This document shows, piece after piece, positions 5,878 through 29,639 of a stretch of 64,000 bases of DNA. The stretch's first letter is position 1; every line of letters begins with the position of its first letter. The notes below the pieces were generated by a model that saw only the letters and a program-made list of their open reading frames with translations, did no database searches and was not told the DNA's origin. Origin of the DNA: Auriscalpium vulgare (taxonomy: Eukaryota > Basidiomycota > Agaricomycetes > Russulales > Auriscalpiaceae); the NCBI GenBank assembly GCA_019915015.1, contig JAHBBC010000042.1, positions 159,496 through 223,495 on the forward strand. The letters are read 5' to 3'. The position numbers were made by a program, and so were the translations under genes.

Positions 5878-6137
5878 CGCGGCACAATGGGCGTCGCTTC
5901 CGCTTCAACTTGGCATTCATTTCGCGACGCTGGGTTAAGTACAGTGGGCGGAGAGTGCCTCAGATGCACGGTCGCGCTCGCGGAGCACTGAGAGTAAGGC
6001 TCAGAGAGACTCGATGTGACGGAAGAGCTTGAACGTCGCTTGTAATTGGGAGTCCCGCGAGCGCTGCATCGCTAGTAAGTAAGTACTGAAGAGACTGGAA
6101 ATTGCTCCGCGTCCGGCTGCGGACTGTGCTGGTCCCG

Positions 6138-7263: not shown

Positions 7264-7272
7264 CGCTCAGCC
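7264..7272. repeat. 9-bp target-site duplication, left copy (element A)
   Basis: CGCTCAGCC immediately precedes the element end TAGACTCG; the same nine bases follow the other end at 9622-9630. Confidence 0.95.
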
Positions 7273-9621
7273 TAGACTCGTAACCAGCCGTACTGACGAC
7301 GATGTTGAGATGGGGAGGAATCGTCGTCAGACGGACTGGCAGAATTGAGTTTGAAATCCTATGTAGCTCGCGTTACCGTAAAAGGATACCCGGTCCGGGC
7401 GCGGGCCTGAGGTCCGCCTGGCCCGTCGCGACGCGTTTGCCTGCGCGACGCGTCTCTCCCGACTTTTTCTCCGTTCGCTACCACCATGACAGCCCCCGCA
7501 CCGTGTCTCTCAGCGCTTCTAGACCTTCCTGAAGCTCATAGAGCACGTATACAGGCTGTATATGACTTGCCAGACTCAGATTTATGGCAGTATGCAACAC
7601 AACTCATAGGCTCTCGACTCGAGCCGCTCGACTCGTTCCTGCACACCCTGGCGCCGCGTCAGATCTGGCAAAAGCGCTTCGCGCGTGTCTGCTGCTATGG
7701 ACTGTCACCAACGGAGAGAATGTTCCGCGACAAATGCAGCTCGAGAGTGTCATCCCGGTGTGCTCTCGCAGAGACAGTCTCGTCAACGTCGGAACAGGAT
7801 CGGGCAAGACCATCTGCATGGTCCTGGCAATTTTGCTTCAGATTGGCGCAACATGTCTCGTTATCAACCCTCTGCGCCGACTGCAGATTAATCAGGTGCG
7901 TATCCGTGCCTCTTTCGGCCCCGCGGTCTAATTTCCACTCGACAGGTGGCCGAGTTTTCAGCGTACGGTATCCACGCCCAGTGCATCAATGAGGATACGC
8001 CAGACGATCCCACACTATGGAAAGTACGTATAACGACGTTATCTATTGTACAAAGGCTCACCATAACGTAGAAAATCGAGGACGGCGCCTTTTCTGCGAT
8101 CATCATCGCGCCCGAGTCCCTTGACAGGTTCCAGGGACACATGCCACGCTTCGCGTGTCTCCTCAAGGGCCCTAGCAGCCCAGCCGCTTGCGCAGGTCCA
8201 CATCGGGCTATGCAAAGTGCAGCCCAAGATACCGCAGGCAGGGGAGCGGGCCAAGCCAGGGCACGGGCGGGTGGTCGAAGAATAGGTTGGGACAGGAGTG
8301 CTGGGTCTCGCGAAGAGGGGTAGCGGCATATTGCAGTCCGGGTTCAGCGAGGAACGCGTAGATTGCCTTCAACTCTGACAGCTATGAAAGAGAGCCCCTG
8401 GGTTTATCATTGGCAACGGCACTAATTAGTAGGTACAAGTCTAGAGGAATATCAATAGCAAGGATGTCACAACGCGAGTGGAAGTGGAGGCCAGTATTAC
8501 GATTATCAGAGCGCCGTCCCCACTCGCCAGCGCCGCTCCTCTGCATGATATACCATAATCTGTGTTCGTTTCACTTCCGCAGTTTATATGAGATATACGC
8601 AGCGAAATGATATCAGGACTGTTCGATGTCCACTTCGACTCTACTATCGACAGGGGCCCGTCGGGTACTGCAGCTGAACCGCCAGTAACCCTCCATAGCA
8701 GCTCGGTGCCCATTTTCTCGCCCCTTTCCAGGTACACCCGCATATGCTCCGCGACGTACGCATTCAAGAACCGCACCATTCTAGGCGCGGAGACAGTCCA
8801 GCGCCATTATGTCAGGCTTGCATGAATCCAAGCCCTGTCCGGGACACTGCCTCCTCACATCCGCTCCCTTGTCGCCGACATTGCGTGCGGGCTCTTCGAA
8901 AGTGGAGTTTGTTGTGTGCATTGCATGACCAGAGCTCAGAGAATCTTCGTCGATAGCAGCGGCCAGCGCAGGAAGATCCTCTTCGAAGTACTGAGCCCGA
9001 CCGGGATCGAGAGATGTAGAGCGCAAACGACGTGCAGTAGAAATAGTGTCCGGAGTAATTGGGATCTTGAAGTCGAACGCGCGAGCACTGGCAGGAGTAG
9101 TATGGCCCGAGACAGGTGGGTGAGTCAAATGAGCGCGACTGAAGTCGGGAGTGCCAAAGAAGCTGGAGAGCGGTGAAGGAAATGGGCTTGGGAGACCAGA
9201 CAGAGGTGCAAAATAGTCGCGTGGTGTACTGGTGAGCTGTAGTGTTAACGGAAGGGGAGACAGAGATGGAAGTGTCGAGAATGATGGTGCTGCCTCGAAG
9301 TCAATGAGAGCTCCATTGAACTGGCCTTTGGCGCGCTTTCTCGTGCGGGAAATGGTGCCCGACTCTTCATGGATGCGTCGTTTGGTGTTTAACGGGGTCT
9401 ATTGAGACATTTGGGTATACAGTGAGGGGGTATATGCAGAGAGGTGTATGCTACGGGCAGCGACGCGACGTGTCTGCGGCGCGCGCAGCGGTCCGACCCC
9501 GGACCGGCTATCCTTTTACGGTAACTTGAGCTACATAGGATTTCAAACTCAATTCGACCGGTCTGTCTGGCGACAACAACCCTCCCCATCTCGTTGTCGC
9601 CGACAGACGGTCACCGGTCTA
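7273..9621 (+). mobile_element. MULE-like TIR element A (2,349 bp) with helicase cargo
   Basis: The ends read TAGACTCGTAACC... and, inverted, TAGACCGGTGACC.... The terminal inverted repeats span about 7273-7399 and 9497-9621; the inner ~70 bp is nearly identical between them. A perfect 9-bp duplication (CGCTCAGCC) flanks the element. Long TIRs plus 9-bp duplications are the signature of Mutator-like elements. Copy C (45863-48210) is almost identical over its full length, and B (24861-30792) shares both ends. Inside are a broken helicase (7486-8168), a 643-bp segment absent from B (8180-8822) and, on the minus strand, the reading frame listed at 25085-25582 in B. No transposase is seen, so it is presumably mobilised in trans. 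Confidence 0.85.
7486..8168 (+). pseudogene. RecQ/DExH-type helicase N-terminal remnant (element A)
   Basis: ATG at 7486 in the context caccATG. The protein-like N-terminus (MTAPAPCLSALLDLPEAHR...) and the helicase core lie one frame apart. The core, in another frame, reads PRQMQLESVIPV, then the Walker A motif VGTGSGKT, then CLVINPLRRLQINQ. Two typical introns (about 7898-7946 and 8023-8071) link it to VAEFSAYGIHAQCINEDTPD and then IEDGAFSAIIIAPESLDRFQ. This is the arrangement of the superfamily 2 helicases common in agaricomycetes. At 8180 the gene is cut and continues as unrelated sequence, so motif II and everything after it is missing. The same frame break is present in all three copies. 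Confidence 0.75.
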
Positions 9622-10597: not shown

Positions 10598-12420
10598 ATG
10601 CCTAAGTCTCCTTTCCGTGCCGACCCACGTCGTCGCCAGGTATGCACCTTATATTGGCGGGCCGCTGTGCTACGATGCTACGAGAGATACTTCTTCTCAA
10701 GCAGGTTGACGCATGCGTCCAATGCCGCAGACGGAAGATCGTGAATCAACTTTCCTGCCGCATCTTGTCAATCCGCGACTGACCCGCTGCATGGCTTATA
10801 GAAATGCGATGCCGCTCGTCCACACTGCGGTGGTTGCGTCAGGTATGTTGTTCTTATATTTGGCCAACACTTACTGTGGATAACAGTCTTTAATCAGGCA
10901 CTGGTATATTGCCACCAGTACTCGTCTGCCGCCAGGACATGAGTAAGGGAACATCGTCACTATCATATTGGTTTACTGATGTCACATCTCCAGGCATCCG
11001 ATGAAGCCAGAGTGCTCGTACATCCCAAACGTTCCAGGCCCTCATGCCAGAATTAAAGAGCTGGAGGCTATAGTTGGTGCGTATATGGCGCTCTTATCAC
11101 CGATCACAGGCTGACAGGAGTACAGCGCAATTGCAAGAGATGGCGACTAACTCAGCCGCCGCACACATGCACGGGTATGATGGGCAGGCTACAGACTTGT
11201 CGCTCCCAAGTATCCGGCCAACTGCGCGCCTACCCATCGTAACGTTAGGGGAGTCAAGCTCCATAAGGCTCGATCCGTCTATGCTCTCCGGCGGCGAGCG
11301 GCGAATTCCACCTCTGTACAGGTGCCGTGCTGTCCGCGCGTGGGCACCGCCCGGCACCGGGCACGAGGCATGGTACCGTTCTCTGCCCTTTTTCCCCCTC
11401 GCCGTCGGCGCGCGCTACGAGATCATCCAGGACGCCGGGTGGCACCGCACCATGCCTGGCCTAGCGACGAACTACGACAGGCTGCTGGTTGCCCGTGACG
11501 AAGGAGGCGCTGTTGGCTGGGTGCTTGCTGCACATGTCACGGTGGAACGTGAAGACACGGACGTGGAGCGTGAGCGAGTGTGTGTGCCGATGGATGTGGA
11601 GGAAGCGCAAGGCGAGAGCTCGCGTACGTTGTCGCCCTGGAACTTACGCCCTACCACCCCGGTCTAACATTTACTTGTCTGTCAATAGCGCCTCCGCCGC
11701 CCGCAGGATCCCTCCCTTATCATCCACTGTGGCAGACAATGGGCACGTCGTCTTCATCTAGCAGCTCCGGCAAAAAATCAACCAACAGCACATCGTCAAG
11801 AATCTCGCGCATGAACAAACGGTTTTCTCCCTCTCGATCGCCCTCAGATTCTATGCGAGAAAGACACAGGTGGACGAACAGTAGAGGGACCTCTGTTGGA
11901 TCCTCGAGCATCGATGAGGTCGACGTCGTCGCCTTAGCGCGCCTGGGCGACATGCCGCTGGCGCCTGAGCCTCCGTCGCTCCACAAGCACGGACCACACG
12001 CCGCAAGTCCGCACGGGCGCAAGGCATACACGTATCCCGATCAGGTCCCGACGCGGCGCCAAGCTTCCTGCGAGTCCGACGTGCACTTTGGCGCGAACGT
12101 CGAGCCGGGGGCGAATTTCGAGTGCACGTACTGCGGGGAGGAGTTCATGAAGCACAGCAGTTTCCTGGTGAGTGGGCCGAGTCTCTTGCGCACCCTTGTA
12201 CTCACAGTGAGGTCTGGCAGATACACTTCCGCAGTCACCCTGAGGCCTGCCGTGCGTACCCATCAACTCTCGAGGCACTTTAGTAGACGCTGACCATCCG
12301 AAATCAGCTTACGTATGCGCTGCTGAGGGCTGCGATCGAAGGTTCTTCCTCGAGAGCGCTATGTGGTTTCACGCACGCACGCACACCCCCAGCGAAGACG
12401 AGAGCGACGGTTCACCGTAG
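10598..12420 (+). CDS. Zn(II)2Cys6 + SH3-like + C2H2 protein (cluster copy 1)
   Basis: Exons as read: 10598-10639, 10705-10740, 10802-10842, 10994-11076, 11126-11623, 11689-12167, then two more to TAG at 12418. Joining 10842 to 10994 gives a canonical binuclear cluster: CVQCRRRKIKC, CGGC, then a sixth Cys eight residues later in PECSYIP, followed by a short helix ARIKELEAIVAQLQEM. Next comes an SH3-like cassette (IPPLYRCRAVRAW; LPFFPLAVGARYEIIQDAGW; LLVARDEGGAVGWVLAAHV), the conserved SGKKSTNSTSSRISRM motif, and two C2H2 fingers (CTYCGEEF...; YVCAAEGCDRRFF). Family knowledge: Zn(II)2Cys6 proteins are fungal DNA-binding regulators. I infer a nuclear transcription factor with an interaction module. 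A 45-nt optional exon at 10898-10942 could be spliced in and would spoil the cluster spacing. Confidence 0.75.
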
Positions 12421-12742
12421 CTGCGGCTGGCGTTGGGCTCTGGTCAGCACGGCGACATCTGACGTTGGGCATAGCGTAGTGGGAGAATGGAGCCGTTAGC
12501 TTGAGCTTGTATAGGTAGTCGATGATTGTTGCATGAGACATCGACATGGGAGCGAGCCAACTTTTGACCGAAACAATGCATATGTATTGCACGTAAAGTA
12601 TGCTGCGCTGAGAACAGAAATGTTATCGAAGCCAATATCATGATGCTGTGCGAAATGGATGGAGCAACGACTTGGATGAGAAGCATGTTAGTGGCCCGCG
12701 CCAGCGGGGTGCCGGAACTGCTGGGACGCCCAGCTCGTCGAC

Positions 12743-14623
12743 TCACGAAACATACACCTCTGAGCCCTTCGCCCTGCATTGCGCACGCGGCTTGTAGTCC
12801 AGCTTCTTATCCGCCTCGCGCAGCTTCACGCTCTCGTGGAACTTCGCACCATCAGGCAACCACCGCGCGCTGAACAAGTGGAAGCTGCGCGCACAGTGAG
12901 AATCAGAACGGCAACGGGAAAAGCACACGCACCCCCATCGCGTGATCCACTCGTTCGCCTGTTTTTGCCAGTCGTACTTCGTGGGGATGATCTCCAGAAT
13001 CCACCACAGCGGGTTCCTCCACAGCTCGTCGTGGAGCGGCTGCACGGCGTCCTGCGCGTCGCGCTGGTCCTCCTGGTGCGCCGCAGCAGCAGCGCCCGCG
13101 ACACTACCCTCCGCCGTCACGTCATCCACGGGCGTCGCCACCGCGGTGGAGCCTGGGGTGGGGATGTTCAGCCGCGCGAAGGCTGCGTCGTCGAAGAGGA
13201 TACACTGCGCACGAGCGACTTCGCGCACCATCCACCGCAGCGGGATGTTCGCGAGCGCATGCGGCGCGTCGTCGCGCACGGCGCTGCCGCCGACGTCTGC
13301 TCGCATGTGCATCAGTGAGAAGTCGCAAGGTCAGGGAGGGATGGGACGCACCGCAGTGGCACCCCGCGAACCACACCTCCTCAACGTCCGTCGTGTAGCC
13401 TTCAGACGATGGCAGGCTCTCCCCATCGTCTTGCTCTCCGTAGAGCAAATCTTCCACCCTGTCCACGAGCTTGTGTCTCCCGTTCTCGAGCGCAAGGCCG
13501 ACGTCATGTGCGACGTGCTTAATGTCGAAAGGCGCATTCTTTGCATGTTTTATCAATGAATTCGATGCCGGCTCGCCAGTGGGAACTGGTCGGTGGTACA
13601 GATTGGGACGAAAGAGCGCGCGGTGCTGTGAGAGACGAGGTCAGAGTCGAGTGAGGTGGCAGAGCCGAAGAAGGACGTGCCTCATCAAGCGCAAGCGCCT
13701 GTCGGAACGTCCTGATGGTCGTGTTGTTGCCCACGAATGGCAACGTGCGCGTCAGGACCACACCGACGCTCGCGACGGTGTCCCTGCGAATAGAATGGCA
13801 CCATCAGCCTGCGTGCGCCGGTGAAAACGCAGTGCACGCACCAAACGCCGACGAACTCAATTGGAACCTCGCGCGAGAAGGTACGCTTGAAGCCCTCCGC
13901 GAGCTTTGCGTTCGCCTTGGTTGATGAGGCGTAGATCTTGTACGCGAATGCCAACTGCTCGTCATTATCCCTTCCAAGCAGGCCGACCTGGACGTGCCGT
14001 GATCAGGAAAAGAGCGCGCGGCCGTGACAAGAGAAGCGCACCTTGTGTAGCATCCCAGCAAGCGCGCGTGCCGTGTACGCACCGCGGGAGAAACCTGCGC
14101 AGAGCCGTCAGCATCAGGACAGGTAAGGCGTGAAGGGAACACGGCACGCACCGAAAAGGCAGACCTTGTCGCCAGTGTTGTAGTTCTGCATGAGAAAGCG
14201 GTACCCGTCGAGGACATGCTGCGAGAGATACCACGCAAACGCCTTGTCCAGCATCGATGCAGCCCAGCGAAATATGGGTCGCACGGCGCCAGGCTTGAAA
14301 TAAGTGCCTATGCCCGCCTGCAAGCCCGATTAGCCACCCGCGTGTTGAAGGCGCGATGAGATAAGAACGCACTTGGTAATAACACATCTGATCCTCGATG
14401 TGGTCCTTGTTGAGCAGCGAGTAGAACTTGACCACGTTCGTGTTCTGAACTCGCCAAGAAACAACGTCAGGAGGGGTATAATCGTCGAGCTGAGATGAGC
14501 ACGCACCTTTGTGCCATACTCGTTAGTCGTGCCATCGAAGCAGAGGACGAGCGTGCGGGGCTTGCGGCCCAAGACGGCGGGGGGCTGCGGGTTGAACGAT
14601 ATCGAGTATGCCGGTTGGGCCAT
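12743..14623 (-). CDS. DUF2235 / Tle1-like alpha/beta hydrolase
   Basis: ATG at 14621-14623. Exons read cleanly: 14507-14623, 14373-14444, 14152-14317, 14042-14094, 13842-13987, then from 13783 on, ending TGA at 12743. The protein is about 500 residues. N-terminal strand TLVLCFDGTTNEYG is the DUF2235 signature. The nucleophile elbow GFSRGAYTARALAGML is assembled across an intron. EFVGVWDTVASVG follows, and WFAGCHCDVGG is the conserved Cys-His-Asp region. Family knowledge: this domain is shared with bacterial type VI phospholipase effectors (Tle1) and is widespread in basidiomycetes; a lipase/esterase role is likely and the substrate is unknown. No signal peptide seen. One intron (about 13623-13676) appears to use a GC donor. 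It sits inside the SH3-like gene cluster on the opposite strand. Confidence 0.88.
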
Positions 14624-14773
14624 GTTGGATGCCGTTCTTGTATTATATCGCTGGCGTATGGTAGCAGTGACGACGAGAAGAGACTGGAATGCGTGGGGAA
14701 GGGGGATGGATGGGCAGACAGCTGCACGAGCAGTCAGTACGCACGAGCGGCTTTATAGCAGCTGCGATGGCGC

Positions 14774-15906
14774 TCACTGGAGGAAAAGACACGAAGCACC
14801 GGAGTCTTGCTCCTCCTTCGGCGAGCGCCTTGGTATCGACAAGGCCTGGCCCGTAGACCGTTGGCCGCATACTAACTTGCTCCGTCCGAGCGTACCTACC
14901 ATTCGACAGCGATACGTGTTGAAGTGAGCAACTGAATGCGGCCGCGTCGAATAGCCTGCGGAGCCGCTAGGGCTGAATGTTCCCTGTACTCCAAGCGAGC
15001 GCGGACGTAGAGGGCACTCCGAACCTTCGTCGTCAATTTGGTACCTGCAGGGACACAAAGGGTCCACCGGAGAAGGTTTGATCAGCGCAAAGTAGCCGTA
15101 TGAGGAGTAGGACGTACTTAGAGAGAACTATGCGGCCAGAAGCCAAACGGCACAGCAAGATCGACTCGGACATAGCGCGACACTGCCAGCACGAAACGTA
15201 GGGAAAACCGGGGATAGAAGTCGAATGGAGCGATGGGTTTGTAGAGGCGGGTCTTTGACCATTTCGGCTGCCACCTGCTGGCACATTGGAATAATGTTGT
15301 CAAAGAAAAATCGCGAGCGCCCCGTCGTTGAGACCCGCAGCACCGTCGCCTGTTCCTGGCGTGCGCCGATACTCTCGCGTGTGGCGTGGTCGACCTAATA
15401 GGAAGGGAGCCTGCGTGCGCTTGAACTTGACTGGCTGAGCGCCGCTGGACTTCGCGATACCGACCAACCTCATCCTGAGATGGTGCGAAGGTCAGGAAAA
15501 AAACACGGAGAGAGGGAGAGGGGCGTACCTCGACTCCTTGCACTATTACCGCCGCACTGAGTCTGTACGACATCTCCACGTTATCACTAGAAGAGAAGAA
15601 GGACGAGGCCTAGGGCGCTGGAATGGTGGCGGTGAGTGGCAGGAACGCGCCTGAACGCGCTGGCGAGGCGAAGAGTACCGGTGCCGTAACCTGCATCGAC
15701 GTCGCGTCGGGCTCGGCCAAGTGACTTGCTGTGTCTCAGAACGTGATTCGTGCGATGCTCAACAGCTCTCGGGCGCGGTCCTTCGACTTGTCAGGTAGGA
15801 GAGCTACGGCTCGCGCGACACGTAGTGCATGATCTCTCAGCAATTCTCGCGGACCGGCCACATACAATTCAACCCGGTTGAAGGCGTCGTCATCTGGGAA
15901 GGCCAT
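14774..15906 (-). CDS. Hypothetical minus-strand gene, relative of 6138-7170
   Basis: A clean short N-terminal frame starts with ATG at 15904-15906 and ends at 15736: MAFPDDDAFNRVELYVAGPR, then LLRDHALRVARAVALLPD and KSKDRARELLSIARITF. It looks helical and basic. Downstream pieces include MEMSYRLSAAVIVQGVE (15579) before a probable intron, SRYVRVDLAVPFGFWPHSSL (to about 15118) and YQIDDEGSECPLRPRSLGVQ (15067 on). I could not establish one continuous model, and this may be two genes. No known domain. It has the same order of homologous blocks as 6.1-7.2 kb, including a CCCTA-N2-CTAGGG palindrome just upstream. Confidence 0.35.
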
Positions 15907-16249
15907 TCACGGCGGCGCGTAAGGGGGGCATCGAAAACATAGGACTAGGAAAGAGTGGGAATCATTGACCAGCGCAGGTGGCAGGACTGAAGTAGCCCTA
16001 CGCTAGGGTTGGCTCGGGCCGCGCTGTCCCGCATATGGCGTGCGCCGTGGACCGGTCGCTCTCCCTCGCCTCACCCTCAGGCAGACGACGAACTTTCCCT
16101 TGCCTCACGACCTGTGTCTATACCTGGACGAGCCAAAGCTCTCTGTCCCACAGAAGTGTGCGCAGCGCATACCCTGACCAGTTTCATTTACCTGACTAAC
16201 ACCACGCATACGTAGGCTTTTGCACGCAGGACGATCCATCTGTTCTTAC

Positions 16250-16640
16250 AAGGCGCAATGTCAGCTTCCAGGCATTCAGCGCTGCAAGCTGGCGACGCTG
16301 TGGATGCCGAGTCCCGACGATGCACGAGGTATAGCGTTCCAGTGCGGTCGGCACCCTCGTTCTGCATAAGTAGCAGGCCCAATCCTCCCATTTTCAGCAG
16401 CGCTACCAAACACATTCCTCGCATGCAGTCGCAGACCAACACGACAGGAGAATATATCACAGACGCTCGGCTCCAGACTCTCACCTCGGTGCGTTGCGCT
16501 CTCGCTTTACCCCTCCCTCTCGCTAATACGGAACCACAGGGCGAGTGGGAGTTCCTCGTGACGACCCGTGCAACTATGCAGTGGGTGAAAACCTCTCACC
16601 TTACCTCGTGCGTAGCCCTACATACCTGACTCCCTCGTCC
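16250..16640 (+). other. Possible small exon pair of unknown identity
   Basis: An ATG at about 16424 (MQSQTNTTGEYITDARLQTL) runs to a plausible 5' splice site near 16488. The frame resumes after a CACAG near 16539 with GEWEFLVTTRATMQWVKTS. It may be the 5' part of the disrupted SH3-like copy just downstream. No domain recognised. Confidence 0.25.
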
Positions 16641-16689
16641 CCCAGCTAACGTCCCTCCAGCGTGCAGCAAGCCAGACTTGTAATTTGAA

Positions 16690-17330
16690 TTTTGCGCCCA
16701 CGCGCACGCCAGGCTTGCCGCATCATCACCCTGCCCTCCAACATCCTCTCCTGCCCTCTCAGCGCTACACTCGTGCTAGGTCGTCTGCACCCGCCAGTGG
16801 GCCCGAGTCGTACCGCGGCCTGTCCTTTCTCCCGCGAGCCCTTGGCGACCGGTATCGCCACGAGATCATCCTGGACGCGGGGTGACACCGCGGCGTGCCC
16901 TGCGCTCTTATCATGGGGTAGGATAGGCTACTCGTCGCGCGGGATGCGGCGGGCGCGATTGGGTGGGTGTGCGCGGAATACGTGCTGCGCGTAGACGAGA
17001 GTGTGGACGAGGGCGAGGGCATATGCAGCAAGGATGGGTAGAGTTAGATCGAGAAGTGCATTCCGCGTACGTCTCCTCCCCAGATCGCTGTCGCGGTCTT
17101 GGTTCTGACTGTGTCTGTGCAGTGCCGAGCGGCTGGGCACGATGTACTGGAGCTTTCCTCGGGCGGCTCGTCCGCGTCTGGGGACAGCATGCCGCGCACG
17201 CTGGTCGGACTCGGGATGGCTACAAATTTGCGACCAGTATCGCGTCGCAGAAGGAGCAGATGCACCAGCAGTTCGTACTGCGGTAGAGGACAGCCGGAGA
17301 GCATACCACGGACGATGGATGATCTAAGTA
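16690..17330 (+). pseudogene. SH3-like cluster copy 2, broken
   Basis: Recognisable remnants are RGLSFLPRALGDRYRHEIIL, then DAG followed by TGA at 16883-16885 where the other copies have Trp, then DRLLVARDAAGAIGWVCAEY. Around 17150 a Ser-rich stretch (ELSSGGSSASGDS) sits where the Ser/Lys motif should be, but the KKSTNS core is gone. An in-frame stop, another stop before DRLLVAR and loss of the motif indicate a pseudogene. It lies between the DUF2235 gene and copy 3. Confidence 0.7.
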
Positions 17331-18075
17331 CGCGCGTCTTTGGATGGCGAGGCGGCGGGCTCAGCACGCATGGCTTGGTCCACACGGTCCTGCCGCGACC
17401 CTTCCAACTTCAATATCCGGACCATCGCGCTGCTCGACGCCTTCCAGTATCCAAGTTGGACGACGTCCTGCCACATGGTCTCGTTGCGGAACGGGTGTGT
17501 GCGTCGATATTCGTTTTTCACTCTTTCCTGAAACCTTATCTTTCAGACGATCCGCGACTGCGATGTCGTCACCGATAGCAAGAACGAGCGCCACGCTCAT
17601 TTGGCAATTTCGCGCGCATACACCGGGCGGTGGGACACGAGCAGAATGGCACGAGCAGAACACGAGCAGAGGGCAGTGACCTCTGAATCGAGATGCGCGG
17701 ACACGTTCTTTGCTGTGGTTCGACAGGCGGCCATCGCAAGGCGGCGCTTGATCCAGAAAACAACTGGTCCCGGGCATGCGCGGACAGCATTCCAGTGCCG
17801 GCGCTCTTGGACTGCTATAAGTATCGTGGGGGTTCTGGGGGTTCCGGCCGCGATCTCCCTGTCCACATCCTCAGTCCGACATGTCGAGCATTTTTCGCAC
17901 CGAATTACCCACTACGGTATGCAGTCCCTCGCAGCCGCCACGCTTAGGCTGATTCATCTGTATAAAAGTTTGGGAACCAACAAAGCGTGGACGTGGATGC
18001 AGCCGACCTACCGGACACCTACCTTGCTCCTGTGTCTGTATTTCACTATCCATAGCATGTCGAAGCGTACTGACC
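17331..18075. other. No supported gene
   Basis: Several overlapping open frames exist on both strands, but none shows a recognisable domain or a consistent intron pattern. Part of it should hold the 5' exon and promoter of cluster copy 3, whose first coding exon I could not find. Confidence 0.3.
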
Positions 18076-19222
18076 ACTGTACGATAGCGATAACACAGCT
18101 GCTGAGCCTGAGCAGTACGTCGGCCGCAATATCACCGCCACCTCAGCACTGCCCGCCCTCCGCAAAGTGCCCTCTCAAGAGTCGCTACCTGCGACCCGTC
18201 CGGAATTTCTGACCATCTTGCGTTCGACGTCAAGCCGCCGACCGCGGCGGATACCAGCGCTGTATCACTGCCGTGTAGTCCGTGCATGGGAAGCGCCCTG
18301 CGGAAAACATGAAGAAATATGGTATCGCGGACTGCCTTTCCTCTCCCTGGCGGTCGGCGCGCGCTACGATATCATCCAAGACGGAGGGTGGCATCATAAC
18401 CTGCCTTCGGATAGTGCGCTGTTCGCCGGGTACGGTAGGCTGCTGGTTGCTCGGGAGCCGAGCCCGGACCCCTGGGGTCATGCCGACGAAGTAGGATGGG
18501 TGCTCGGGAGGCACGTCGAGCGTGAGTACGAGCAAGAGGGCGCAGATGAATGCGTGCCTATAGACGTGGAGGAGAGCGAAATGCTCCGTACGTCGCTATG
18601 CGAATGCACCACATCTTCCGAACTCACACTCTGCTTGCCTGCCAACAGCAGCACCGCCGCCCGCGGGGGCTCCAGCGTATGACCCGCAGTGGTACCAAAT
18701 GGGTTCGTCCTCGAGCAGCTCCGGCAAAAAGTCAACCAACAGCGCGTCGTCGAGAAAGTCCCGGATGCACCAGCGGCTTACACCGTCGCAGTCGTCCCAT
18801 GGGTCTAAAAGCAACGCTCAAGAACGGGGCGATACGGCGGGATTCACCACACGCCCATGGGACCGCCGGGCGCCGCGATCCTCACACACGCCGAGCGCCG
18901 CATTCTCGGCCAAGCATAACTGCCCGCACTGCGGCAAGAGCTTCGTTCGACATAACAGTCTGAAGGCAAGTCCCGCGCTATCTGCGCATATTAGTTACTA
19001 TGTCAAGCGACTGATGTGTGTTACCGCCCGACAGATCCACCTACGAATCCACATGGGCGATCATCGTGCGTGTATCTTCGTGCTCGGGACGCTCTCGGTG
19101 CTCACACTTCGAGATCAGGTTTTGCCTGCCAATTCGAGGGGTGTGGTCGGCGGTTTGACGTCCAGACCAACCTGCTGCGTCACGCCCGCACGCACACCAG
19201 GAGGAAAAACAACCCTCATTAG
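18076..19222 (+). CDS. SH3-like + double C2H2 protein (cluster copy 3; 5' end unresolved)
   Basis: The main exon is open from after a TGA near 18075 to 18587 with no in-frame ATG, so a short upstream coding exon must exist. Cassette: RRIPALYHCRVVRAW, LPFLSLAVGARYDIIQDGGW, RLLVAREPS, then DEVGWVLGRHVERE. An intron at 18588 leads into PPPPAGAPAYDPQWYQMGSS, the motif SGKKSTNSASSRKSRM, and two C2H2 fingers split by an intron: CPHCGKSFVRHNSLKIHLRI and ACQFEGCGRRFDVQTNLLRH, ending HARTHTRRKN and TAG at 19220-19222. The fingers are canonical (C-x2-C...H-x3-H and C-x4-C...H-x3-H). Inference: nuclear DNA-binding regulator. No N-terminal DNA-binding domain is visible. Confidence 0.7.
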
Positions 19223-19896
19223 CGACTCCCTGAAGCCCCGAAGCTCCGGACAGAACAGACATGATGGGCCTCAGTCTCGCATATATCGATGTGTAGAGTA
19301 CAAGATTCAATTTCAGACTCCACATTCCAGTTGCGCCGGTCTATGAATTGCTGTTGGAACGCTCGCGTGGCGAAAAACGCGTCCACGAAATTGATCGTGG
19401 GCTAGCCGAGCAACCACGCACGTCAGCAACATAAATCGAGAAGAGCGGATGCACGAGCAAGTTCGATTGCGGTTGTGAGATGGCCGCACTCGAGGGCGAC
19501 GCCGCGCGAGCGGGCGATATGCTGCACGATACTGGTCGATGGTGCGTGAGCATCGACGCCTACATAAGTCAGCCGAGGACTGACGGCCAACAGAGCTTCA
19601 CTGGCTGGATGGGCGATGCGGAGCGCGACGGCGGGCACAGCTGCGTGTCGAAAAAACCGTGCGGGCGTCAGTCGGGGGCCTATCTAGCTCCCTCCTGCGC
19701 GCTTGTTCTGAATAATATCACTAGAGGGCGAGCCGCGGTGCCGAAATCGTGAGAGGACAGCATCGTACAGCCATCGACACGCCTTCACCACGACCCTCCA
19801 CTTTATAACTCGACTCCTCCGCACGCGCAAACCCACCCTAGCCACCCGGGCAGACCTCTATCCCCCGCCACACTATACTCCCGCAGCCACCACCAG
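19223..19896. promoter_or_regulatory. Upstream region of the HSF-type gene, homologous to 21.9-22.0 kb
   Basis: No gene seen. At about 19655-19695 the sequence gtgcgggcgtcagtcggggg followed by cctatctagctc matches 21955-21990 upstream of copy 5 (gtacgggcgtcagtcggagg, cctatatagctc). The duplication of cluster genes therefore included their promoters. A pyrimidine-rich leader, CCCACCCTAGCC to CCGCAGCCACCACCAG, precedes the ATG at 19897. Confidence 0.45.
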
Positions 19897-21583
19897 ATGA
19901 AAAACACCGCCACTCAGCCCCCGACCTCCGTCCCAAACTCCCCCGACGGCGCCCGCCCCCCAACCCCCTTTAAGTCCAAGTCCCCCCGCCGGATCCAGCA
20001 AAAGGTCACTTTCCTCACAAAGCTCTATGAGTGAGTCTTGGTCTTTAGCGTCAGTCATGTCCCTCACGCGTTCGCAGTCTTCTAGAGCGCCCCGAAAATC
20101 ACCACATGATCCACTGGGATGCCGCCGGCGAGCACATCATCGTCGAGCGGCCAGAGCAAGTCGCCCTCCACCTCCTACCTGGTCAATCCAGATTTTCAAC
20201 CTTCTCTCGACAGCTCAACGTGCGCATTCTATGCTTCCTCCCGGCGCCTCATAACCCCGCTTTCCTCAGATCTACGGCTTCATGCGCAAGGTCAACCTCC
20301 GCAACCTCTATCCCGCCATCGATGACCCCGACGCCTCCACCTGGTGTGAGTACACATGTCTCTCCTTGCCTGCATAGGCTCACCACCCCTGCACACGCAG
20401 CGCATCCCACGCTCAGACGCCACTCACCCCCCGAGGTTGTCGAGAACTACAGGCGCCGCGTCCTCCCGCGCCTCCCAAATCCCCGCACGCATCCAGAGGA
20501 CGACCAGGGATCTTCCATCCCGCCCCCGTGCACCACCTCCGGACTAGATGACATTCCTGTATCATCGCCACAAGGCGGCCGTGCTTCCCCCGACAGTCTA
20601 TATAACAACCCATCGCTCTCGCTCTCGTCTCATCGTGACGAGGACATCGTCTTTACCAAGACCGCACAGCGCATACCACCTCTATATTGCTGCCATGCCG
20701 TCGATGATTGGACGCCGCCCGGTGGAGCAAGGTACCTCTCCTTGCCCTGGCTCTGCCTTTTCCGGGATGATCGCTACGATATCATCCAGGAATCGGGGTG
20801 GCATCGAAATCTGCCCGGCTCCAATGGGACGTCCTACCAGAGTCTCTTCATCGCGCGCAATGCTGCCGACGACGTGGGATGGGTGCTCGGGAAGAACCTT
20901 AAGCGCGAGACTGTTGGCTTCGGGCTGCTAAATGGGGAGGAAGACGAGGATGCCGTTGTCGGTGACTTGTTGGACGCCGAAGGTGAGAGCCGGCGTTCGC
21001 TCATAGCGTCGACCGCACATTAACAGATATCAGTGCCTCCACCACCTGCGGGATCCTTTGCGTATGACCGTTCATGGTACCAGATGGGATTGTCATCCGG
21101 TACGAGTAGCTCCGGGAAAAAGTCTACCAACAGCACGTCATCTAGAAAGTCGCGGATGAATCAGCGGCTTACGCCGGGAATGTCCTCTCAATCTGAGAGC
21201 GGGGCTGAAGGGCCCAATAGCAGATCTTCGAGCATCCAAGATACTCAGGCTTCGCCGACAATGGAGCCAAGCGCGCCGTCCACGGCGAAGTATGAGTGCA
21301 CTCAATGTGGCAAGGGTTTCACAAAGCGCAGCATTCTGCAGGTAACTCGCATGTTCTGAGGGAGCATGTCCGCAGCTCACACGCGGTGTCGTTTAACAGA
21401 TACACCTCCGAAGCCACCCTGGCGAGCGCCGTGCGTATATCTCGTAGTCGAGGATCTCCGGCCGCTGATGATGTGAAATCATCCTCAGCATATACCTGCA
21501 CATTTGAGGGCTGCGATCGGACGTTTAGCGTCAAGTTCCACATGGAACGCCACGCCCGCACGCACCGGCGAGTCCGTGCATGA
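19897..21583 (+). CDS. HSF-type DNA-binding domain + SH3-like + double C2H2 protein (cluster copy 4)
   Basis: ATG at 19897 (MKNTATQPPTSV). The first three exons splice to an HSF-type winged-helix domain: KVTFLTKLYDLLERPENHHM, IHWDAAGEHIIV, then RFSTFSRQLNIYGFMRKVNL, then WSHPTLRRHSPPEV. This matches the HSF order FxxKLY / ixWs..G.sf.v / FssFvRQLN.YGF / F.HP.F.R. Next come the SH3-like cassette (RIPPLYCCHAVDDW; DRYDIIQESGWHRNLPG; VGWVLGKNLKRE), PPPPAGSFAYDRSWYQMG, SGKKSTNSTSSRKSRM, and two C2H2 fingers (CTQCGKGFTKRSILQ; CTFEGCDRTFSVKFHMERH) ending at TGA 21581-21583. Family knowledge: HSF domains bind inverted nGAAn repeats. I see no HR-A/B coiled coil, so this is not an ordinary heat-shock factor. 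All exons are intact. Confidence 0.8.
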
Positions 21584-21976
21584 CGCACGGAGCCACGGCG
21601 AAAGTGACGTCTGACTGCAGCCGCAGCTTTGCGCGTCAGGTTCCGGTATGAAAGAGTCGCACATCTCAGATGGATCACGGCCATGCTCGGTGACTGGTGG
21701 TGGGGACCGTGTTTCTGCGGACGTATTCAACGACCCCAGTATTGCAATGATCTAATACTATTACAGCTCAGCGGCCTTTCGGCCCGGGCACGAAACCCAC
21801 GAACGGCGGAGGATGTCGCAGTCCTATGAGCGCTCAGCACCAATTAGAGGCTGTCGAAGATGCCGCGATGGTTGTTCGGACGCGGAGAACCGTTGCGCGA
21901 GTCGCTGTCGCAGACACGACTTCGATAGGTGCACAGCCGACGTGTCGAGAGGCTGTACGGGCGTCAGTCGGAGGCC

Positions 21977-21983
21977 TATATAG
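21977..21983 (+). promoter_or_regulatory. TATA-like box of cluster copy 5
   Basis: TATATAG in the context ggcctatatagctcgc lies 54 nt before the ATG at 22037, a reasonable TATA position. The homologous upstream block of copy 4 has a weakened version (tatctag) at about 19686. Confidence 0.4.
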
Positions 21984-22036
21984 CTCGCAGCGGTGCGATC
22001 TCGCTGTGCACTGCAACCTCCTTCCGCCCACTCGCC

Positions 22037-23266
22037 ATGCCCAAGGTTCCCTCCAACGCCGACGCCAGTCTTACTCTAGAGGCGTTACCCACGCCTGACC
22101 ATCATCCAGCGCGCCCATCGAACTCCTCTGCACGGCGGAGGGCGGAGACAGCATGCATAACCTGCCGCGCCAGCAAGCGGCCCCTCGTGCGTCACTTCTC
22201 CTCGCCCCATCGCTGCATTTTCGAATAGCTCATGCGTTTTCTCACCTTTAGCGATGCGACAAGGTGCTCCCATGTTGCGGCCCTTGCAGCCAGTACGCCA
22301 ATGCATACGTGCCCATCGGGCCGAGACGACTCACGCTCAGTCGCTTTTGTCATCCAGGAGAGGACAGCGTTGCATCTATCCCAATTGCATCTATCCCAAC
22401 AAAAAGAAACGTCTCCGGCGCATACCTCCGCTGTATCGCTGCCGTGCTGTACGCACGTGGGCGCCGCCCGCCGATAGCAGTAGCGGCGAAGCGCCGTGGT
22501 ACCTCTCCCTCCCCTTCTTTCCCCTCGTCATCGGCACGGCCTACGAGATTGTGCAGGACTCAGGCATGCACCATGTTCCCGAGGTGGGGATGCCGTTGAA
22601 ATGTCACGAGCGGCTGCTGGTCGCGCGCGATGAAGGAGACAAAATCGGCTGGGTGTTCGCGACCCATGTTGAGCGCGAGCTGCACGACGCCCATGGCCCT
22701 GGTCTGCTGATCACGACGGATAGCGAGGGTGCCGGACGATCAGATGCGCCGATGGATGTGGAAGGACGCGACAGCCTACGTACGTTGCACCTCCAGTCGC
22801 CAATGCTCTGATCTCACGTGTCGTCGTTTGCTCGTGTACAGCGCCTCCGCCACCTGCGGGCGACATCCCGTACACCTCGCTCTGGCAGACCATCGGATCG
22901 TCGTCGTCGTCAAGCAGCTCCGGCAAAAAGTCGACGAATAGCGCGTCGTCGAGGAAGTCGCGCATGAACATGCGGCACACGCCGAGTCCTTCGTGGTCCT
23001 CTGAAGCAGAAGCTGTGGATAAATTCGATGAACATCGGGTGGGCTCAGGCGCGTCACCAAGTACCGCTGGGAAGAGGACGAAGAAGAGGAAGCGGGGATC
23101 TGCGTTTGGGCGCATGGTCCGCGCGGCGATGGGCAACAGCCCGCCAGAGGAAACACGTGCAGTCCGAGTCTATGATGAAGCTGAACCTACGGCCTTCCTG
23201 GAGTATCAGCAAGGCAAATCTTACCTGCCAGGCTCATCTACATCGTCAAAGGATCGATTCCCATAG
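22037..23266 (+). CDS. Zn(II)2Cys6-like + SH3-like protein with basic tail (cluster copy 5)
   Basis: Starts MPKVPSNADASLTLEALPTP. A Cys-rich cluster is interrupted by an intron (about 22189-22251): ACITCRASK, then RCDKVLPCCGPCSQY, then after a further uncertain intron RCIYPN as the likely sixth-Cys segment. Spacing between the second and third Cys looks like eight rather than six residues, so the donor may differ or the cluster may be degenerate. The SH3-like cassette is clear: RRIPPLYRCRAVRTW, LPFFPLVIGTAYEIVQDSG, RLLVARDEGDKIGWVFATHV. After an intron: PPPPAGDIPYTSLWQTIGSS, SGKKSTNSASSRKSRM, then a Lys/Arg-rich tail (TAGKRTKKRKRGSAFGRM) in place of C2H2 fingers. TAG at 23264-23266. Confidence 0.68.
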
Positions 23267-23429
23267 GTACCTTTATGAAATTTATTACGCATACATGTAG
23301 AATAAGTATAGGGTGCACAAGTAGCGAATAACAATCGGTAGGGCCAAATCGTGAATCAGACGGCTACAATGTGTCGATATGAATGATGCAAAAGGAAAAA
23401 GGCCAGCTGCTGGCTACGACCTGATCATC

Positions 23430-24478
23430 TCACTTGCCTTTACCGAACATGCTACTGAATACGAATCCCCGCTTCATCCTCTTCTGATCAGTGCCCGGAG
23501 GGCATGTAGTAACTGCGACAGCCTCCTCGCACAACCTCGATGACTCTGTGTGCCGCTGGTTCATGCGCGACTTTCTCGACGACGTGCTGTTGGTGGATTT
23601 CTTGCCGGAGCTGCTCAACGATGAGAAGGAGGAGCACGACAAGGAGGACCAGGAGGAGCCCATCTTCCGCCATAACGGGCGGTACGGGAGATCACCTGCA
23701 GGCGGTGGAGGCACTATCGCTATTCAGTAAACATGCAAATCTCATGAGAGGCCGGAATGGGGGGCTCCCGATGCTGCAACGTACCTGGGAGATCATTGTC
23801 CTCCTCGCGCTTGCTCTCATCCACACCCTTTGAAACTGCAGCAACACGACCGAGGAACGGCGGCACTGGCAGGTGCAACTGCCTCGACATCCACGATTTC
23901 CTCGACGACGACTTGGCCCCATAACTGATCGACCCGTCGGACGAGCTCGAGCCATCCGGGGAGCGCAGCGGATGTCGTCCTAACTCACGCGCTGTCGAAA
24001 ATCATGAGTCGAACGCAGTGTTGAACGTTTACCCCAAGATCCTTTACTCACACGGCTTCATCTCTGCATCCCGCTCGTTCACCACCACTACCACCTCCTC
24101 GCGCTCCACATGCTTCGCGAGTGCCCACCCCACCTCGTCCGCGGAGTCCCGCACAACCAGAAGCCTGTCAAACTTGCCGAACAGCGGGGACAGACCGGGC
24201 AGGCCGCGGTGCCACCCGGCGTCCTGGACGACCTCGTAGCGCGCGCCCTTCACGAGCGAGAAAAACGGCAGCGAGAGGTGCCACGTCTCCTCGCCATCGG
24301 CCGGCGCCCAAGCGTGCACGACGCGACAGAAGTAGAGCGCCGGGATGCGCCGCGGTCGGCGGCTGGACGGAGAGGAGAGCGCGAGGATCGCGTCTGACTC
24401 GCGCGTTGAGGTTGTGGGTAGCGGGGAGGGCCGCGGTTTTGAACTTGAGCTTTGCGCCGCATCTGGGGTATTTTTCAT
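23430..24478 (-). CDS. SH3-like protein without DNA-binding domain (cluster copy 6)
   Basis: ATG at 24476-24478 (MKNTPDAAQSSSS, like the MKNTATQPP start of copy 4). One exon holds the cassette: RRIPALYFCRVVHAW, LPFFSLVKGARYEVVQDAGW, DRLLVVRDSADEVGWALAKH, ending MKP at about 24056. An intron of roughly 330 nt leads to a second exon (about 23716-23430): PPPPAGDLPYRPLWRKMGSS, SSSGKKSTNSTSSRKSRM and a short KRMKRGFVFSSMFGKGK tail. It lacks Zn(II)2Cys6, HSF and C2H2 domains, so it is the minimal version of the family. It is inverted relative to copies 1-5 and could act as an interaction-only partner or competitor (inference). Confidence 0.65.
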
Positions 24479-24851
24479 GTCGGATGAGGGGGGCTGAATC
24501 GACTGAAGGAGTGGAAGCGGGGTAGTGCCATGTCACTGAGGATGCACTTATACCTCAGTCCAAGGCAAGCGCTGGAATGGCTGTGCGATCACTTGCGGAA
24601 TACATGTGCATAGCTGAGTATGAAAGTCCTCATGCCTCGGGCGTTGAACGAGCGTGGAGATGAGTCCTGGATTGCTGGACGAAGTCGGGCGATAATATTT
24701 CACGATGGATGTTGGACTTCAACCCCGCGCGAGGCGGAGGGTGACTGCACCGGCACTGGCACAGCCGGCCCGATTGCAACCCTTACCCTAGTATAGGGCT
24801 AAGATGGCGTAACGACTCGAATTTTGTGCCCTGCACAACTTGCTCCTCCCT
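24479..24851. other. Intergenic region, no gene seen
   Basis: Probable promoter of cluster copy 6, read leftwards. Contains the palindrome-like ccctagtataggg at 24788-24800, also found in related form at 7213 and 16000. Confidence 0.35.
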
Positions 24852-24860: not shown

Positions 24861-25084
24861 TAGACCGGTGACCGTCTGTCGGCGACAACGAGATGGGGAG
24901 GGTGTTGTCGCCAGACAGACCGGTCGAATTGAGTTTGAAATCCTATGTAGCTCAAGTTACCGTAAAAGGATAGCCGGTCCGGGGTCGGACCGCTGCGCGC
25001 GCTCCGCAGACACGTCGCGTCGCTGCCCGTAGCATACACCTCTCTGCATATACCCCCTCACTGTATACCCAAATGTCTCAATAG

Positions 25085-25582
25085 ACCCCGTTAAACACCA
25101 AACGACGCATCCATGAAGAGTCGGGCACCATTTCCCGCACGAGAAAGCGCGCCAAAGGCCAGTTCAATGGAGCTCTCATTGACTTCGAGGCAGCACCATC
25201 ATTCTCGACACTTCCATCTCTGTCTCCCCTTCCGTTAACACTACAGCTCACCAGTACACCACGCGACTATTTTGCACCTCTGTCTGGTCTCCCAAGCCCA
25301 TTTCCTTCACCGCTCTCCAGCTTCTTTGGCACTCCCGACTTCAGTCGCGCTCATTTGACTCACCCACCTGTCTCGGGCCATACTACTCCTGCCAGTGCTC
25401 GCGCGTTCGACTTCAAGATCCCAATTACTCCGGACACTATTTCTACTGCACGTTGTTTGCGCTCTACATCTCTCGATCCCGGTCGGGCTCAGTACTTCGA
25501 AGAGGATCTTCCTGCGCTGGCCGCTGCTATCGACGAAGATTCTCTGAGCTCTGGTTACGATTCCCTGAGTTTACGAAGTTGA
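25085..25582 (+). CDS. Element-borne reading frame of unknown function
   Basis: Open from an in-frame TAG at 25082 to TGA at 25580-25582, with no in-frame ATG at the start, so a short first exon is probably missing. It reads NTKRRIHEESGTISRTRKRA, then a Pro/Ser/Leu-rich stretch (PLSGLPSPFPSPLSSFFGTP), then DEDSLSSGYDSLSLRS at the C-terminus. The basic start and Ser/Pro-rich middle suggest a nuclear or disordered protein. The same frame occurs in A (minus strand) and C, but there it runs into other sequence after SSG. It points away from the adjacent TIR, as a second gene of the element would. Confidence 0.45.
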   Translation, partial: TPLNTKRRIHEESGTISRTRKRAKGQFNGALIDFEAAPSFSTLPSLSPLPLTLQLTSTPRDYFAPLSGLPSPFPSPLSSFFGTPDFSRAHLTHPPVSGHTTPASARAFDFKIPITPDTISTARCLRSTSLDPGRAQYFEEDLPALAAAIDEDSLSSGYDSLSLRS

Positions 25583-26169
25583 ATCGTTTACTAGGGGGTT
25601 TTTCGAGGTCGTGCCTGCATCTATTCGGTCATGGTCGCCGGATGCCGGTTTGATCCCCGGTTTGATTGCCGCTGCCTTGCGGTTGTATGTCCGGCCGGTC
25701 GGACCTCCGGGCCTACCGCCTCTCGCCCTCTCAGTCGTCCCACCCCAGCCCACCCCACGCCTTGCACAGGCGCACAACATCATGCACACTTGCCAGGGCT
25801 TGGTGGGTCTTTTCTATCTTCGTGAAGTTCTCATGATCATACTTTCTGGCAGTTTCTGCATCCATGTGGACCAGTACTACTCCTTCACCTCAAACCACAT
25901 AAGTACCTTGTCCCCCACACATCGGCAATTTCTCCTTCACCTCCGCGCAGCCGCAGCTGCCACCGCCCGCACGGCGCCCGCGCGCCAAGGAGGAGAGTAG
26001 CGGAGGACATAGGGTGACTGAGAGTCGAGAGGACGAGAGGACGAGTCATCGGCGCCGTCATCGCGCAGGTCGATTTCACGCGCCTTGTACGTGAAGCACA
26101 TGTGTGTATGCGCAGCCTTCGTCCTTCGCCACATTGTACTCACGGCCATGTGCAGTCTTGAGATATTCG

Positions 26170-26450
26170 CGCTGCAAGAGCTGAACGAGCGCCGCCTCAA
26201 CGCGCTTGCGGAAATCGACAACGCCAATTTCTTGTACGCTCCATCAACCCACTTCACGACAAATCTGCGGCTGATGCTCGCGTCGCGGATAGGTGGTTCC
26301 ATGTGAAGGTTGCCATGGTCGCCGGCATTGGTTTTTTCACCGACGCGTGAGTCGCGTTTTGTTTCTCGATGTGCTCGTGTGCTGACCGTTCGGTGTGTCG
26401 CAGCTATGACATCTTTGCAATTAACATCGCGTCGGTACTACTTCGGTTCC
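26170..26450 (+). pseudogene. Pho84-type phosphate:H+ symporter, N-terminal fragment
   Basis: The reading LNERRLNALAEIDNANF joins through a typical intron (about 26234-26291) to WFHVKVAMVAGIGFFTDA. A second intron (about 26348-26403) joins it to YDIFAINIASVLL. This is the conserved N-terminus and first membrane segment of fungal MFS phosphate permeases of the PHO84 class (family knowledge). Both introns keep splice signals, so this is a DNA-level capture, not a retrocopy. After about 26443 the sequence turns into GC-rich repeats and the remaining ~500 residues are absent. It lies inside MULE-like element B and is presumably non-functional. Confidence 0.75.
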
Positions 26451-27300
26451 ATGGGGGACCCCTCGGGCCCACTCGGTGTACTCCGGGGGGACCCAGCGGC
26501 ATCCCGCACGCACCCCGCGGGCTCAGGCGCGCCCAGCCATTGCTGGAGCGGCTGGAGCTCGCGCGTAGCGCACGAGACGCCGTGAGGTCCTCGCGGGAGC
26601 TGCCAGGACCGCGCGCGGCTGGGCTTAGCGGCACCGTCGACGCCGCCGCCGTCTGCGCACGCAAGGGCCTTGCGCGACCGACAGGACCGTGCAGCGCGCC
26701 CGGTCCTGGCAGGATCCCGCCCGTACCGCGCGGGCTCAGTGCGCCCAGCAATGCTGGAGCTGCTGGAGCCCGTGCGCAGCGAGGGTGCCCGCCAGAACCG
26801 GGCGGATACCGCCCGGTCTGCGTGCCGCTCGGATGCTGCGGCACACGGCATGCTGCATTGGCGGCCGCCGTCGGTGCCCCGCCTGGTTGACGCGCGCGCC
26901 CCTCGTCGCACCCCATCGCCGCCATCGTCGTCCGCCCCTCGTCACCGCCGCCGTCGCCGTCGTCGCCCGCGCCCCTCGCCGCACGCCCTTGTCGCCGCCC
27001 TTGCAGCGCACCCAAGCGCATCGCCCTCGCTGCGCGCCCATTCGCGTCGCGTCCTCATTGCTGGGCGTCGTCCTCGGTCCTCGCCCTCCTTGCCGGGCGT
27101 CGTCCTCGTCATCCTCACTGCGCGCGCTGCACATCGCCCTCGCCGTGCGCTACTGCTCGCCGCCCTCCCTGCTCGCCCATCTGCATCGTCCTCGCTGCGC
27201 GCCCGTGTGTCGTCTTCGCTGCGCGCCAGGAGGCACCTGGTGTGGCACCATACAAGGCGGCGCAAGCGGGTCTTGCGGTTGTCGGGGGGCTGTGGATGCC
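26450..27300. repeat. Very GC-rich degenerate tandem sequence
   Basis: Blocks of about 220-240 bp resemble each other: gcgggctcaggcgcgcccag around 26518 and gcgggctcagtgcgcccagc around 26738, both followed by a ctggagc-rich stretch. From about 26890 to 27210 there are irregular repeats around cgccctcgctgcgcgccc. All six frames are open for long distances, which reflects composition rather than coding. Confidence 0.6.
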
Positions 27301-29464: not shown

Positions 29465-29639
29465 TGAATTTCACTCTTGGATTAGTAATCAATTGCATAG
29501 ATCAATTGAATATCACTATCAAATTACGCGCCAATTACACCTCAATCCTCAAGGCAGAACTCCGCAAAAGCGCAAGTCATGTTACTGAATGGAATCGTAT
29601 TGCCATGCTCGAGCATTGGCTCTCTTCAAGCTAGTCATG

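Follow-up and report, generated by a model that had tools for sequence, protein, structure and literature searches.

The window analysed here is a 64-kb stretch of DNA from Auriscalpium vulgare (Basidiomycota; assembly GCA_019915015.1), the terminal 64 kb of contig JAHBBC010000042.1 (C42). It carries a cluster of genes in which one conserved, SH3-like cassette is joined to different DNA-binding domains. An earlier, sequence-only reading described six copies, and all six are found where it placed them: five are intact (c1, c3, c4, c5 and c6) and one, c2, contains stop codons. The c1 cassette, compared by phmmer with six-frame open reading frames (ORFs) of the window, recovers c3, c4, c5 and c6 with 88.5, 70.6, 103.3 and 104.5 bits, respectively, and c2 in two pieces (22.1 and 17.3 bits); none of 20 dinucleotide-shuffled controls of the same search gave any match. 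In the whole genome (51.6 Mb, 96 contigs) the same query matches 13 places, of which six lie in the window, two further upstream on C42 (U1 at C42:142852, plus strand, and U2 at C42:158861, minus strand) and five on other contigs (one each on C20, C8 and C3, two on C33). The proposed local expansion is thus borne out, with eight of 13 cassettes on C42 and a synonymous divergence (dS) of 0.20 between the cassettes of c3 and its upstream twin U1; among the other C42 paralogs dS ranges from 0.84 to 2.46. The cassette tree (28 rows), in which 12 of the 25 inner branches are open, does not give the order of duplication. U1 (L022, C42:142753-143838) is 80% identical to c3 at the nucleotide level over 1090 columns. 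A partial copy of c6 (L026, C8:534338) has 71% nucleotide identity to window positions 23887-24233 and includes part of the c6 middle exon.

Gene models were spliced by hand, using GT-AG introns of 47-71 nt plus one of 151 nt. They contain eight exons in c1, seven in c4, four in c5 and three in c6, and are consistent with the starts proposed earlier at 10598, 19897, 22037 and 24478. The resulting architectures are Zn2Cys6-SH3-C2H2 (c1), SH3-C2H2 (c3), HSF-SH3-C2H2 (c4), Zn2Cys6-SH3-basic tail (c5) and SH3-basic tail (c6). Both Zn2Cys6 clusters and the HSF domain become complete only once introns are removed. The C-terminal differences claimed before, two C2H2 fingers in c1, c3 and c4 and a basic tail in c5 and c6, agree with these models. 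So do the claimed N-termini of c1, c4, c5 and c6, the c6 model having no visible DNA-binding domain; the N-terminal exon of c3 could not be fixed. The c3 frame is open from 18074 with no ATG upstream of the cassette, and its model requires one GC-AG intron (18966-19034). Of the motifs said to be conserved, SGKKSTNS is present in five copies and literal PPPPAG in four; neither linker nor tail motif is seen beside the c2 cassette. In c3 the linker is PPPAG if left unspliced, and becomes PPPPAG with only one of two possible intron ends.

The same fusions exist in a second A. vulgare record. A search of about 5.8 billion proteins with the c1 cassette region, which depends on shared five-residue words, had 2185 candidates. 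It gave four proteins; A. vulgare is the source of them all, and each is listed on one 73,090-bp contig. P0001, P0002, P0003 and P0004 match c1, c5, c6 and c4, in this order, with the same architectures. Both the mosaic structure and its recurrence are shown. In Pfam scans P0001 has PF00172 above the cut-off and its fingers below it, P0002 has PF00172 (21.8 bits, cut-off 21), P0003 has nothing above cut-off, and P0004 has both PF00447 and PF00096 (34 bits, cut-off 25.2). PF00447 scores 26.2 bits on a single c4 exon and 54.2 on P0004 (cut-off 22). After splicing, the Zn2Cys6 cluster of c1 has all six cysteines with CX8C as the last spacing; that of c5 also has six, its last CX6C spacing being produced by the second intron. 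By domain scores in c4/P0004, and by the Zn cluster score and intact C2H2 residues in c1/P0001, each combines two classes of DNA-binding domain in a single protein and fits the definition of dual-specificity factors. A second search, with a 12-row alignment, scored the 7992 candidates sharing most words and returned P0001, P0002, P0003 and a new A. vulgare protein, P0005; P0004 was not returned, and no c3-like A. vulgare protein came from either search. Restriction of the family to Auriscalpium is a limited negative, because the 12-row search was probably swamped by serine-rich words.

Table 1. Features of the cassette cluster and of the repeats around it (window coordinates unless a contig is named)
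Feature	Position	Strand	Remarks
c1 gene	10598..12420	+	440 aa; splice models; 388/431 identical to A. vulgare P0001
c1 exons	10598-10639, 10705-10740, 10802-10842, 10994-11076, 11126-11623, 11689-12167, 12221-12251, 12308-12420	+	
c1 Zn2Cys6 cluster (end approximate), then RIKELEAIVAQLQ helix-like linker	10705..11020	+	PF00172 31.7 bits in P0001 (cut-off 21)
c1 SH3 cassette	11299..11538	+	
c1 PPPPAG linker and SGKKSTNS-SRM tail motif (end approximate)	11689..11817	+	
c1 two C2H2 fingers, spread over three exons	12120..12388	+	12213-12388 aligns with C1 gene
c2 cassette, one TGA and one TAG	16760..16984	+	genome search, phmmer
c3 open frame: cassette, linker/tail, two C2H2 fingers	18074..19222	+	N-terminal exon not settled
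c3 SH3 cassette	18245..18520	+	
c3 two C2H2 fingers	18918..19195	+	GC-AG intron 18966-19034
c4 gene	19897..21583	+	455 aa; 407/443 identical to A. vulgare P0004
c4 exons	19897-20030, 20078-20219, 20270-20345, 20401-20982, 21034-21341, 21400-21430, 21489-21583	+	
c4 segment homologous to HSF gene C21:572774-572001	19849..20547	+	exons and introns; holds HSF DNA-binding domain
c4 SH3 cassette	20667..20903	+	shares exon 20401-20982 with end of HSF domain
c4 C2H2 end	21261..21565	+	homologous to C1:2518129-2517822, two introns at same positions
c5 gene: Zn2Cys6, SH3, tail motif, basic tail	22037..23266	+	239/329 identical to A. vulgare P0002
c5 exons	22037-22186, 22252-22292, 22358-22779, 22842-23266	+	
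c5 SH3 cassette	22416..22676	+	Zn2Cys6 directly precedes
c6 gene: SH3, extra middle exon, tail, basic tail	23430..24478	-	matches A. vulgare P0003 (174/226 identical)
c6 exons	24478-24052, 23991-23785, about 23719-23430	-	
c6 SH3 cassette	24104..24352	-	
About 2.3-kb repeat	7272-9586	+	
About 2.3-kb repeat	24895-30793	-	split by about 4.1 kb at 25556-29630
About 2.3-kb repeat	about 45892-48210	-	
About 2.3-kb repeat	C2:2211886-2213705		

Overall identities between the two records are given in Table 1; that of c6 and P0003 was computed with a shorter, two-exon c6 model lacking the middle exon. In c1 and c4, DNA-binding domains and SH3 are 92-98% identical to their A. vulgare counterparts and the tail 95-100%, versus 65-95% for the stretches between domains. 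The tail motif of c5 is identical to that of P0002 (43/43), and the c6 SH3 domain agrees with that of P0003 at 73 of 83 positions. In the cassette tree c4/P0004, c5/P0002 and c6/P0003 pair at 100% ultrafast bootstrap, and c1/P0001 falls into the unresolved part. Two control comparisons between the same genomes, both ungapped, gave 839/843 (99.5%) for a RhoGEF and 199/202 (98.5%) for the C33b segment. The cluster, at 73-92%, therefore changes faster than these two controls.

The origin of the cassette is indicated by its C20 match, which is the C-terminus of a DH-domain RhoGEF (E 6.7e-11 with the c1 cassette). A search with this C-terminal region kept 63 of 102 candidates scored; 61 of the 63 contain PF00621 and four are named dynamin-binding protein. 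Their hosts include Artomyces, Lactarius, Heterobasidion, Suillus, Trametes, Athelia and Mycena, genera that span several Agaricomycete orders. The RhoGEF rows taken into the alignment (26 of the 63) align with the cassettes continuously, end to end, and by this alignment the cassette is homologous to the RhoGEF C-terminal domain. A BAR domain was suspected in the RhoGEF as well; Pfam shows none. At the C33 and C3 loci, the cassette is joined to a C-terminal ...R-M/L-N...PPG/TPG..FLR tail, and inspection by eye showed no DNA-binding domain there. P0005 is the A. vulgare counterpart of one of the C33 genes and has no precomputed Pfam domain. The cluster genes appear to derive from this cassette-plus-tail type.

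The predicted structure of the cassette is a five-stranded barrel with an RT loop and a 3-10 turn, in keeping with the earlier SH3-like claim. It was obtained in two models, one of them built without any RhoGEF row. The 50 matches listed for the cassette models in each of two comparisons are SH3 domains or entries containing one, although their labels do not show it in every case (9l64, for example). The cassette is thus predicted to be a divergent SH3 fold. No Pfam match of the cassette exceeds the cut-off. The c6 cassette ORF (window 24044-24532, minus strand) matches PF18997 (DUF5727) with 17.1 bits, below the cut-off of 26.5, and P0003 matches this family with 13.4 bits. In Fyn, proline-peptide binding involves Y91, Y93, W119 and P134 (positions from PMC10453029). 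The equivalents in nine cluster rows, mapped by eye, are R/D/H, W, W (7/9) and L/F. Because the binding residues are only partly present, the partner motif of the cassette may be atypical.

Two of the DNA-binding ends have relatives elsewhere in the same genome. The HSF domain of c4 has one other match at E <= 0.001 (C21:572184-572488, 78-81% identity); further HSF loci exist in the genome, which has seven exon-level matches on six contigs when c4 is included. In blastn, window positions 19915-20547 match the C21 gene at 74.2% over 690 columns, and positions 19849-19893 at 88.9% over 45 columns, from the last base of the C21 start codon onward; three introns lie at the same places. Over 99 codons the ratio of nonsynonymous to synonymous divergence (dN/dS) is 0.16 and dS 0.47, and two residues differ in what we take to be the recognition helix. 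The finger ends of c4, c3 and c1 match a C2H2 gene on C1 at 72.7% (308 columns), 67.4% (319) and 66.7% (183), with both introns at the same places; flanks are common to it as well ('MEPSA-S-AKYEC' in c4, 'EDESDGSP' in c1). Finger dN/dS against C1 is 0.21-0.26 across c1, c3, c4 and U1 (0.21 in c4). Between c3 and U1 it is 0.78, a value that may reflect relaxing constraint on one of the two. Finger 1 of U1 has a proline where the C1 gene has leucine. Zinc fingers contact bases through residues at a few usual positions; these differ between copies, which would fit diverged targets.

The HSF end of c4 and the C2H2 ends were likely captured from the C21 and C1 genes. We infer that these genes are sources, not recipients, because no cassette match (13 in all) falls on either locus. 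Since dS of the HSF segment is below that of the C42 cassette paralogs other than c3 and U1, HSF capture appears to be later than the cassette duplications, unless gene conversion lowered its dS. Between c1 and c5 the Zn2Cys6 ends are homologous, with a Smith-Waterman score of 95 that none of 1000 shuffles attained. For the basic tails of c5 and c6 three of 1000 shuffles reach the observed score, and 15 of 1000 do so with their A. vulgare counterparts, which is suggestive of homology only; for the sequences that precede the cassettes in c3 and c6 the signal is weaker still (42 of 1000). The c6 middle exon (23785-23991, minus strand) holds a possible degenerate second tail motif, GAKSSSRKSWM, which suggests an internal duplication.

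We propose, as the probable reading, that the cluster represents a local family of mosaic transcription regulators. A divergent SH3 module would have been present, probably already, in small proteins ending in an S-x-K-x-R-M/L-N tail, and this SH3-plus-tail unit would then have been duplicated on C42. Pieces of ordinary regulator genes would have become attached to it at the level of genomic DNA, together with their introns: HSF before c4, the pair of C2H2 fingers after c1, c3, c4 and U1, and Zn2Cys6 before c1 and c5. The products would be nuclear, sequence-specific regulators whose DNA-binding ends choose the target sites, and the SH3 domain with the tail would bring a common partner. As the recognition helices differ at two residues only, c4 may act at the sites of the C21 HSF and compete with, or redirect, its source gene. 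The c6 protein, having no DNA-binding end, may tie up the partner. The earlier interpretation stands insofar as one conserved core carries different DNA-binding ends in different combinations; its wording 'interchangeable' would imply ongoing swapping between copies and is stronger than the evidence. A bolder version is that C42 is a working assembly site, at which a duplicated Rho-signalling SH3-plus-tail unit repeatedly gains host DNA-binding ends and, within one species or between very closely related ones, diversifies at a rate far above that of the genome at large. We regard this version as rather unlikely.

Several observations weigh against the proposal of mosaic regulators. Fusions and roles are read from sequence. 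Pfam detects no SH3 family at E <= 1 in the cassette ORFs, the RhoGEF ORF or P0001-P0004. Foldseek with the cassette model gives no match at E <= 0.001, and hhalign of the cassette profile against six approximate SH3 sequences gives 0.3% probability. The SH3 assignment therefore rests on predicted structure. Against sequences of solved structures, the cassette profile found no SH3 domain and one chance-level match. The full P0004 model has a mean pLDDT (predicted local distance difference test) of 50.7, its HSF part not being confidently modelled. The first Zn2Cys6 spacing is usually CX6C; that of c5 is CX8C. The finger scores of P0001 (16.7 bits, C2H2 residues intact) and c3 are below the Pfam cut-off of 25.2. 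No donor of the Zn2Cys6 ends was found, protein and DNA searches, which short exons weaken, having matched the cluster alone. In c1 the stretch before the fingers (95%) is as conserved as the domains. The c5 gene is only 73% identical to its counterpart (SH3 62/86, 72%; Zn2Cys6 20/34, 59%), and c6 77% (tail 38/44, 86%; C-tail 58%).

The last of these figures, together with the two stop codons of c2 and the c3-U1 finger dN/dS, would also be expected if the fusions, though real, were drifting and had come about as side effects of local duplication and DNA capture, without regulatory role. Recurrence of four architectures in the second record, the 92-100% identity of DNA-binding domains, SH3 and tail in c1 and c4, and the low dN/dS of the HSF domain make this unlikely. 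A single ancestral gene with several DNA-binding domains, differently lost among the copies, would dispense with repeated capture. The C2H2 end could have been gained once and then lost in c5 and c6, and the homologous Zn2Cys6 ends of c1 and c5 fit such a history; the HSF end, with a dS below that of the cassette paralogs (c3-U1 apart), seems to have come after the cassettes split, although gene conversion could lower that dS. We give this explanation little credence. The low identity of the cluster proteins relative to the controls recalls a rapidly evolving recognition locus, of self/non-self or mating-like type, with products that bind DNA incidentally; that comparison uses only two control genes, and ten long, unspliced window ORFs gave one Pfam match (F-box-like) and none of recognition type, so that we hold this to be very improbable. 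That the DNA-binding exons and the cassette belong to separate neighbouring genes is highly improbable: our models were spliced by hand from the sequence, but the HSF end and c4 cassette share the open exon 20401-20982, the Zn2Cys6 end and c5 cassette share exon 22358-22779, and P0001, P0002 and P0004 of the other record carry the same fusions.

The cluster of mosaic genes is flanked by two copies, in opposite orientation, of a near-identical repeat of about 2.3 kb with sub-terminal inverted repeats, which is present three times on C42 and once on C2, in addition to diverged pieces. It is likely a young mobile element. Nested perfect inverted repeats had been considered as a flip-flop or composite transposon; in genome searches they proved to be copies of this repeat. 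Because the full copies are near-identical and the genes are 8-27% diverged from A. vulgare, the repeats would be later insertions and not the cause of the cluster; a link to capture is neither shown nor excluded. Elsewhere in the window lies a tandem duplication (142-3269 and 3289-6328; spacing about 3.1 kb, pieces 80-93% identical) with ORFs of 468 and 567 aa that have no Pfam match at E <= 0.001. The F-box-like match mentioned above is borderline (24.4 bits, cut-off 24.3) and belongs to a 593-aa ORF at 33462-35240 on the plus strand.

Events long past are the usual basis for reconstructing how new transcription factors originate. In the present case a single genome holds the core, the captured ends and two genes that are likely sources. 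Introns and flanks can still be recognised, and a second record has four of the products, so that the order of capture, the constraint and the rewiring are open to direct test. The cluster possibly shows new regulators being assembled, and, if the bolder version of the proposal is true, one signalling partner would have been wired to several unrelated sets of target sites. An SH3 module common to RhoGEF and DNA-binding proteins is a combination of which the literature searched gave no description. For the genus itself one paper on transcription factors and expansion came up, PMC8401616, which names genomes of A. vulgare, A. orientale and A. microsporum. No family with HSF plus C2H2, with SH3 plus a DNA-binding domain, or of matching chimeric or captured regulators was found there, as judged by titles and beginnings of abstracts, mostly outside subscription journals.

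Among the nearest known systems are fungal dual-specificity factors, which are widespread and likewise combine two DNA-binding domain types per protein. Zn cluster plus C2H2 is the commonest type, found in 140 of 191 fungal genomes, and the same source describes paralog expansion and domain loss (Shelest 2017, PMC5415576). The class criterion in use is at least five genomes; the present fusions were found in two records, by a word-dependent search. In the Aspergillus nidulans case an adjacent Zn cluster comes after two C2H2 domains, N-terminal with one exception (PMC5415576); in the cluster, the SH3 core separates the N-terminal Zn cluster from C-terminal fingers. Table 3 of the same paper has no row for HSF plus C2H2 and the term 'SH3' does not occur in its main text, so the architecture is not catalogued in that dual-specificity table, in line with the earlier expectation. 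Agaricomycete DH-domain RhoGEFs share their C-terminal residues, about 85, with the whole cassette domain and differ in a listed Pfam annotation without DNA-binding domain; at the n-Src position they have H (26/26 aligned), the cluster W (7/9 rows). With the SH3 superfamily the cassette shares the predicted five-strand barrel, while it is missed by Pfam and, as mapped by eye, carries other residues at the positions of Fyn Y91 and P134. The HSF gene on C21 (about 572.0-572.8 kb) and the C2H2 gene on C1 (about 2517.8-2518.1 kb) are source-like relatives with shared introns; unlike the cluster genes, they have no place among the cassette matches. Domain capture with transposases or F-box genes similarly joins a DNA-binding domain to another module (PMC12062965, PMC10799480); here the ends resemble portions of the host's own regulator genes, and Pfam shows no transposase domain in the cluster proteins scanned. 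To these systems the cluster adds a core related to a RhoGEF, likely donor genes for the HSF and C2H2 ends, and a second occurrence in A. vulgare.

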